Assembly: GCF_000148645.1 (NCBI RefSeq)
Contig: NC_014541.1
Span: 2,999,139 to 3,063,138 of the forward strand
Length of the DNA stretch: 64,000 bases
Direction of reading: 5' to 3'
Source of the DNA: Ferrimonas balearica DSM 9799
Lineage (GTDB): Bacteria; Pseudomonadota; Gammaproteobacteria; Enterobacterales; Shewanellaceae
How positions within the stretch are numbered: the first letter of the stretch is position 1; the number at the start of each line of letters is the position of its first letter. The notes beneath the pieces are model-generated. The model saw only the letters and a list, made by a program, of their open reading frames with translations, was not told where the DNA came from and made no database searches. Of this stretch, positions 20,884 through 21,655 are shown piece by piece. The position numbers and the translations under genes are program-made.

Positions 20884-20917
20884 CTGTATATATAACCAGC
20901 ACTGTTCATTTATACAG
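20884..20917 (+). promoter_or_regulatory. Two adjacent LexA (SOS) boxes
   Basis: Box 1 is CTGT-N8-CCAG at 20884-20899 with an alternating AT core; box 2 is CTGT-N8-ACAG at 20902-20917, a perfect core match to the gammaproteobacterial LexA consensus. They are 18 bp apart and end 9 bases before the next ATG, so LexA would block transcription directly. Confidence 0.8.
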
Positions 20918-20926
20918 ATACGTACC

Positions 20927-21655
20927 ATGAGCACATTTCAATTGAGCCATAGCCAGCCAGTGGCCTGGCTGAAATCTCTGGGCCGCCACTCGGTTGACCT
21001 GGTGGTGACCGAATTGCCGACCCCGCGTCGCGGGCCAGCCATCGCCACCGAACTGAAAAATGCCCGCTCGGTGCGTAATCAGTGGTTTGCCATCTTCCCC
21101 AATGACCCCTACCCCGGCCTGTTTGAACAGCTCTACCGGGTGCTCAAGCCCAACAGCCACTTCTACCTGTTTTGCCGTCAGGAGGCGCTGTTCGTGGTGA
21201 AGCCCCTGGCCGAAGCCGCCGGCTTCCGTTTCCAGACCGTGCTGGTGTGGGACCAGCAGCGCAAGAAAACGGGCCGCAACTACCGCAACCAGCTGGGCTG
21301 GATCTGCCTGTTTGAAAAGGGCCAGCGGGCGGTGGCCGACCCCAGCCAGAGCGACCTGCTGAGCTACGCCCTGGAGAACCAACACAAGCCCCACGCCCTG
21401 CTGGCACTGCTGATGGCGCAAAGCAGCGCTCCCGGCCAGCTGGTGATCGATCCCTTCTGCCTCGACGCCCAGATAGCCCAATCCGCCCTTACGGAGGGCC
21501 GACGCTTCTGCGGTGCCTGTGCCGACGAGGCTCAGCATCTGGCCCTGCGCACTCAACTGCGGGCCCTGCCCGACATCACCGAACTGCTGACCCGCCCCGC
21601 CAGCACGCCCCTGCCCGGCTGGGCCCAGGGCAGTGCGCAGATGGCGCTGCTCTGA
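20927..21655 (+). CDS. Degenerate N6/N4-type DNA methyltransferase-like protein, SOS-boxed
   Basis: 242 residues. The order of segments is that of the PF01555 DNA methyltransferase family: VDLVVTELP (about 23-31) at the place of the catalytic VDLIITDPPY, LYRVLKPNSHFYLFC, then KPHALLALLM and VIDPFCLDAQIA (about 173-184) at the place of DPFxGSGTT. The catalytic DPPY is replaced by TELP and the glycines of the SAM motif are lost, so methylation is unlikely. Two LexA boxes overlap its promoter. It may bind DNA or act as a partner in the damage response; the function is unknown. It stands alone with its own terminator. No strong ribosome site is seen before the ATG. Confidence 0.75.
   Translation: MSTFQLSHSQPVAWLKSLGRHSVDLVVTELPTPRRGPAIATELKNARSVRNQWFAIFPNDPYPGLFEQLYRVLKPNSHFYLFCRQEALFVVKPLAEAAGFRFQTVLVWDQQRKKTGRNYRNQLGWICLFEKGQRAVADPSQSDLLSYALENQHKPHALLALLMAQSSAPGQLVIDPFCLDAQIAQSALTEGRRFCGACADEAQHLALRTQLRALPDITELLTRPASTPLPGWAQGSAQMALL

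Follow-up and report, generated by a model that had tools for sequence, protein, structure and literature searches.

An old methyltransferase fold under LexA boxes in Ferrimonas: a degenerate protein with a clamp-binding-like C-terminus suggests a previously undescribed DNA-damage-response protein

To our knowledge, the genes under strong LexA control usually encode repair enzymes, polymerases or division inhibitors. A gene of Ferrimonas balearica DSM 9799 which starts directly behind two LexA boxes and encodes a protein resembling a DNA methyltransferase without its active site therefore raises the question of what such a protein could do in the SOS response. The gene was analyzed within a stretch of 64,000 nucleotides (contig NC_014541.1, positions 2,999,139 to 3,063,138), called the window in the following. 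At a probability of about 0.5 we favor the reading that the gene encodes an SOS-induced, catalytically dead methyltransferase fold, which is tethered to the sliding clamp and there probably competes with polymerases or MutS.

The position and sequence of both boxes were right in the initial annotation of the locus (Table 1); their starts are 18 bp apart and a gap of 2 bp separates them. With a matrix built from seven sites of the same genome, from which the topB site identical to box 2 was left out, the two boxes took the first two ranks (22.5 and 18.2 bits) among all positions on the plus strand of the window, followed by a site with 11.0 bits. Since boxes of this type were also found upstream of the genes with the NCBIfam names recA, lexA (double), recN (double), ruvA, ImuA and topB, the box type is, judged by its gene neighbors, the LexA site of this organism. 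The box in front of topB, which encodes DNA topoisomerase III, matches box 2 in all 16 bases (L087:872-887). Directly 3′ of lexA lies a gene for a protein of 154 amino acids (L093:2102-2566), which scored 75 bits against the ImuA model, short of the 150 bits required, and is perhaps SulA-like.

Single LexA boxes are no evidence: the window contains 14 boxes with at most one mismatch against 22.7 expected from shuffles, and genome-wide 29 perfect boxes face 20 for the reversed pattern. The pair of boxes is exceptional. In the single contig of 4.28 Mb that makes up the genome, the double pattern CTGT-N9-CAG, 0-24 bases, CTGT-N8-ACAG has three matches, namely at lexA, recN and the gene described here, a restriction which holds for this single mismatch pattern; the reversed control of the pattern occurs at none in the same genome. 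A chance origin of the boxes was thus rejected by the pair, not by the single boxes. No sigma-70 promoter reached the threshold of the scan.

Conservation of the boxes in related genomes had been proposed as a check in the initial annotation, and they are not absent from the orthologues: two box-like sequences lie 5′ of the ATG in 8/8 (weak in G303), with spacing and layout differing between subclades. The gap is 2 bp in the four nearest orthologues, and the boxes of G300 overlap by a single base. The box starts of G303, G306 and G030 are 38 bp apart; by eye, a TGGACA overlaps with the first box and 8 bp separate the second from the ATG. Scores range from 15.7 to 24.3 bits in the four nearest orthologues and G300 and from 12.1 to 17.4 bits in G306 and G030; the weak boxes of G303 (11.8 and 9.3 bits) compare with 11.0 bits for the best unrelated site of the window and 9.2 bits for one catalytic relative. 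Upstream of the catalytic relatives LexA boxes were found in none of the 11 scanned (best score 9.2 bits). That LexA control was apparently kept despite the changes in layout argues for a function, and from the sequence comparison the damage control of the gene by LexA, as initially annotated, is well supported.

The gene consists of one open frame and its product matched PF01555 with an E-value of 1.1e-11 (45.6 bits, cut-off 26.7); the domain is present in all eight orthologues. A single-chain AlphaFold2 model reached a mean pLDDT of 84.9 and a pTM of 0.81; the pLDDT falls below 50 at residues 38-59 and 232-242. The best Foldseek matches were M.BceJIV (best E-value 6.2e-13), a rotifer N4-cytosine methyltransferase, MboIIA, TTHA0409, RsrI, CcrM and M1.HpyAVI, and structures of METTL3-METTL14 were among the fold matches as well. 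The models matched by PADLOC were mostly those of generic methyltransferases.

The features of the locus were compared by means of a residue column table comprising the eight degenerate and seven catalytic proteins, together with a structure alignment of the window protein, four of five loci from genome contigs and 32 of 79 viral loci. The dead methyltransferase fold postulated in the initial annotation, which noted TELP in place of the catalytic DPPY, is supported by the orthologues. All eight have lost the catalytic Asp, the first Pro, the Tyr, the first SAM-loop Gly (G179) and the Asp of motif II (D198); the second SAM-loop Gly (G181) is lost in six of them. Two short segments are missing relative to the seven catalytic proteins. 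The catalytic (D/N/S)PP(Y/F/W) is absent in 8/8, and SAM FxGxG and the acidic residue of motif II are absent as motifs, the SAM loop FGSG of the catalytic relatives reading CLDA in the window protein. Because catalytic and SAM residues are lost throughout the group, SAM-dependent catalysis by the protein of 242 amino acids is very unlikely. Kept in 8/8 are N51, W53, R71, K131-G132, P155, D175-P176 and R192. The fold may have retained a contact to DNA, in which the loop with residues 45-53 is possibly involved; against this stand a net charge of just +1 to +6 and the low model confidence of the loop 38-59.

Table 1. Features of the degenerate methyltransferase locus (coordinates of the window).
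Feature	Position	Strand	Basis and remarks
LexA box 1, CTGTATATATAACCAG, one mismatch	20884..20899	+	Pattern search and matrix scan; equivalent box in G304, G296 and G297
LexA box 2, CTGTTCATTTATACAG, perfect	20902..20917	+	Ends 9 bp 5′ of the ATG at 20927
Gene for the 242-aa degenerate beta-class (PF01555) DNA methyltransferase-like protein	20927..21655	+	ORF, PF01555 profile, homologues, AlphaFold2, Foldseek
Catalytic motif IV remnant, residues 28-31, TELP for TDPPY (Tyr deleted)	21008..21019	+	Alignment to seven catalytic relatives
Residues 45-53 including N51 and W53	21059..21085	+	Kept in 8/8 degenerate and 7/7 catalytic proteins; low-confidence loop
SAM motif I remnant, residues 175-184, DPFCLDAQIA versus DPFFGSG in catalytic relatives	21449..21478	+	Alignment
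Residue 198, Cys for the motif II Asp (present in all seven catalytic relatives compared)	21518..21520	+	Column table
TELL, residues 218-221, in the C-terminal extension	21578..21589	+	Alignment (TEL invariant in 8/8); short strand at 217-219 in the model
Clamp-binding-motif-like pentapeptide QMALL, residues 238-242	21638..21652	+	Alignment (Q..LL invariant in 8/8); motif according to PMC11139829

The degenerate orthologue was detected in eight of 14 genomes of the genus with an intact frame in each case and identities down to 32%; close relatives in records of Ferrimonas balearica share 79% and 70% identity. A contig titled Marinobacter nauticus DP3N21-5 (NZ_JAHVJZ010000003.1, L005) carries the gene at 82% identity; G304, which is placed in the genus of the window, gives the same match, so that the title is probably wrong. 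Within the family, 26 of 152 genomes matched the profile. Eight of these have the degenerate form, nine strong matches (including G301) all have DPPY and the G-loop, and the remaining weak matches are to methyltransferases of other kinds or are fragments that were left unread, for instance L064. In the sample of the order 26 of 295 genomes matched; among the full-length relatives read the degenerate form was seen only in the genome of the window and in G030, and the weak partial matches L027-L035 and L037-L039 were not carried into the comparisons. As six of the 14 genus genomes and the other members of the family searched lack the degenerate gene, it is dispensable for the SOS response in general.

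In accordance with the initial description as a stand-alone gene, it lies alone between a divergent gene for a subtilisin-like protease and a convergent purL. The upstream neighbors match those of the window in 7/7 other carriers and purL was present within the fetched 18 kb in four of the seven. The neighboring carboxypeptidase shares 53-55% identity with that of the window in six non-carriers against 70-86% in six other carriers; in the carrier G303 it gave no match. From this split the presence of the gene seems to follow a deep division of the genus. Both this restriction to part of the genus and the conserved clamp-like pentapeptide at the C-terminus described below go beyond the initial annotation.

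A tree was calculated from the eight degenerate proteins, 20 of the 79 viral loci and 13 catalytic proteins of bacteria, six of which were trimmed to 230 residues where they exceeded this length. The degenerate proteins form one group on a long stem with a support of 100/99; the tree was flagged for long branches and unusual composition, so that the exact sister of the group is unsettled. The four closest orthologues give pairwise dN/dS values of 0.11-0.36 (dS 0.64-1.22), and by these estimates the close pairs show purifying selection. The other pairs, including those with a dN/dS of 0.10-0.19 among G303, G306 and G030, have dS values exceeding 1 and are at or close to saturation. On this comparative evidence the gene is an old, retained pseudo-enzyme.

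Catalytic relatives with about 40% identity over most of their length occur in Ferrimonas G301, in viral contigs and in further members of the order and family (e.g., Alteromonas sp. a30), and relatives on plasmids reach up to 39.5% identity. In the catalytic relatives read, the active-site motifs (DPPY and G-loop) are intact with one DLPY exception. This protein (L036, G157) comprises 434 amino acids, with the G-loop intact and the C-terminus extended by a long stretch; L036 apart, the chains of the catalytic relatives read stop close to the end of the fold. G301 belongs to the genus but lacks the degenerate gene; its copy (L043) is a catalytic DPPY relative, around which no gene of the window neighborhood was matched. 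A close catalytic paralogue was found in none of the eight carriers with the same profile that detected the G301 copy at an E-value of 1.9e-43; weak matches in G300 (E-value 0.012) and G030 (0.68) are SPPY-type methyltransferases of another kind. A phage or plasmid as source of the degenerate form was considered and rejected: viral contigs contained no relative when searched with the window protein, and the phage and plasmid matches are 24-40% identical.

In all eight degenerate proteins the fold is followed by TEL[LM] and a stretch of variable sequence, and the chain closes with the pentapeptide Q[MI]xLL. Between TEL and the Gln of the tail no column is invariant; the positions TEL and RRF.GA, which are specific to the family, do not vary. 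The tail of the window protein has a pLDDT below 50 and is predicted to be disordered, which suits clamp-binding motifs as described from disordered tails (PMC11139829). According to a 2024 review, the clamp-binding motif has the form Q-phi-x-[L/M]-[F/L] and is in some cases located in C-terminal tails; the optimum is QLxLF, a Met or Ile at the second position together with a final Leu being weaker, and the C-terminal carboxylate of Pol IV contacts Arg152 of the clamp (PMC11139829). A motif of this type in a flexible region is thus present in 8/8 orthologues, the flexibility being taken from the model of the window protein. Among 123 non-overlapping ORFs of at least 100 amino acids from the window and the seven orthologous regions, only these eight end with Q[LIVM]x[LM][FL]; the ORFs were picked mechanically and in orthologous sets, and are hence not independent, and counting Met at the second position as aliphatic was our choice. 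From amino acid composition the chance of the terminal motif is 0.0003 per protein.

Proteins of the same genus carry similar motifs. In all 14 Pol IV sequences read for the genus a QL motif lies near the end, mostly in a longer form; just one of the 14, that of the sister genome G306, ends exactly with such a pentapeptide (QLSLL). In the genome of the window QLPLL was seen by eye in MutS and QLPLF in an error-prone polymerase. MutS of E. coli carries QMSLL; a literature search combining this motif with the sliding clamp gave no match. Binding of the degenerate protein to the sliding clamp by its pentapeptide is predicted from these similarities.

None of the bacterial catalytic relatives read has the Q..LL end. 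Among the viral relatives, 17 of 77 contain Q..[LM][FL] in their last 30 residues; these were taken from the best 79 of 205, two loci with short frames being left out. After dereplication the motif was present in 13 of 51 tails (from the best 79 of 205) versus four of 322 internal windows; when the tails were shuffled 500 times, the mean was 0.76 and the maximum 4 versus the 13 observed. With a stricter motif the counts were eight of 51 tails versus none of 322 internal windows. Examples are QLPLF, QMPLF and QPSLF, and the respective loci lie within L119-L197 (e.g., L161, L176, L180, L172, L178, and L183). As the motif-bearing viral proteins are distant, with identities of about 26-32% to the catalytic query, and the motif is missing from the closest catalytic relatives of the Ferrimonas proteins, the viral and the Ferrimonas tails probably arose separately.

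These observations can be combined into a mechanism whose first part, comprising LexA operator, conservation and loss of the active site, derives from comparison of sequences, whereas clamp docking is a prediction and we infer DNA contact and the role as competitor. In the undamaged cell LexA bound to the two adjacent boxes would shut the gene off; upon damage LexA would be cleaved and the protein made. It would be a methyltransferase fold which no longer binds SAM or methylates and may still contact DNA with its retained groove and loop. The C-terminal tail would dock the protein on the sliding clamp, whose cleft it would fill at stressed forks in competition with polymerases and MutS. Occupancy of the cleft might limit or redirect the access of polymerases and mismatch repair, the protein acting as a brake or traffic factor.

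The main rival of this competitor model is an adaptor held at the clamp by the same tail, whose dead fold would recognize a DNA structure or sequence, such as the ancestral methylation site, and bring the clamp or a partner enzyme there after damage. We regard this as rather unlikely, but it would account for the preservation of the fold with N51 and W53 in 8/8 orthologues and for the invariant TEL and RRF.GA positions, and a fold of 200 residues would seem needless for a pure clamp blocker; against it, no partner gene adjoins the locus between protease gene and purL. A partner of another kind would be an active methyltransferase with the degenerate protein as its regulatory subunit, as METTL14 is to METTL3. 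The METTL3-METTL14 structures among the fold matches and the existence of other methyltransferases, seen as the weak SPPY-type matches in G300 and G030, would fit this idea, which is nevertheless disfavored and quite improbable because the profile-based search, which covered relatives of the degenerate protein, found no close catalytic paralogue in the eight genomes.

The clamp itself would drop out of the explanation if the gene encoded a LexA-controlled DNA-binding or inhibitory protein, close to what was initially supposed, and the pentapeptide were a signal for degradation or a structural element. Proteases can recognize short hydrophobic C-termini, and the clamp motif is predicted from sequence alone; yet the invariant Gln at the right spacing, the predicted disorder of the tail and the similar motif at the C-termini of Pol IV in the genus make this reading doubtful. 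Least probable, and already contradicted, is a decaying methyltransferase gene that is transcribed by accident. The lost catalytic signatures are what decay would produce, but the frame is intact in 8/8, dN/dS is low in the close pairs, the boxes are kept, the eight proteins form one group and they share a new conserved tail. Local decay in particular was rejected by the eight intact orthologues, the low dN/dS and the kept boxes. The initial annotation had singled out orthologues with DPPY as the sign of such decay: none at this locus has an intact DPPY, which occurs in the more distant relatives of about 40% identity and, where examined (G301), not at this locus.

Comparison with known systems helps to place the competitor model. 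With beta-class DNA methyltransferases such as M.BceJIV, MboIIA, RsrI, CcrM and M1.HpyAVI the Ferrimonas protein has PF01555 and the fold in common; in contrast to them it has lost the catalytic motif, the SAM-loop Gly and the acidic SAM residue, and has gained a C-terminal extension with the clamp-like pentapeptide as well as LexA control. Pol IV (DinB) is likewise under SOS control. By sequence, the tail of the Ferrimonas protein resembles the C-terminal clamp-binding motif described for Pol IV (PMC11139829), but Pol IV is an active polymerase and the Ferrimonas protein a dead methyltransferase. For the type of mechanism proposed, the SocB toxin of Caulobacter is a precedent: it binds the clamp cleft and blocks replication elongation (PMC9690074). 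The likeness lies in the proposed mechanism, and SocB belongs to a toxin-antitoxin pair, whereas the Ferrimonas gene stands alone under LexA. Pseudo-methyltransferases derived from the N6-adenine methyltransferase fold are represented by METTL14 and MTA9 of ciliates, both partners of an active paralogue; for the Ferrimonas protein no close one was found in the eight genomes.

LexA-controlled clamp clients and pseudo-methyltransferases are thus known kinds of proteins, and their combination appears to be new: among the titles and abstract openings listed for the open-access literature searched, neither an SOS-controlled dead methyltransferase nor a bacterial methyltransferase with a clamp motif was found. 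LexA control, loss of the active site and the clamp-like tail together suggest a previously undescribed DNA-damage-response protein. Tentatively, a methyltransferase turned pseudo-enzyme that seizes the clamp during damage, as a LexA-controlled replication brake or as a switch between polymerases and repair, might represent a new kind of SOS effector. The reading predicts that the protein binds DnaN through its last five residues. If it is true, a pseudo-enzyme would join the list of LexA-controlled genes, and the Ferrimonas protein would be a convenient example for studying how an enzyme fold takes on a new task in directing traffic at the fork. Similar motifs at the C-termini of phage methyltransferases would mean that clamp docking evolved repeatedly in this fold, and tethering to the clamp may generally couple methylation to replication.
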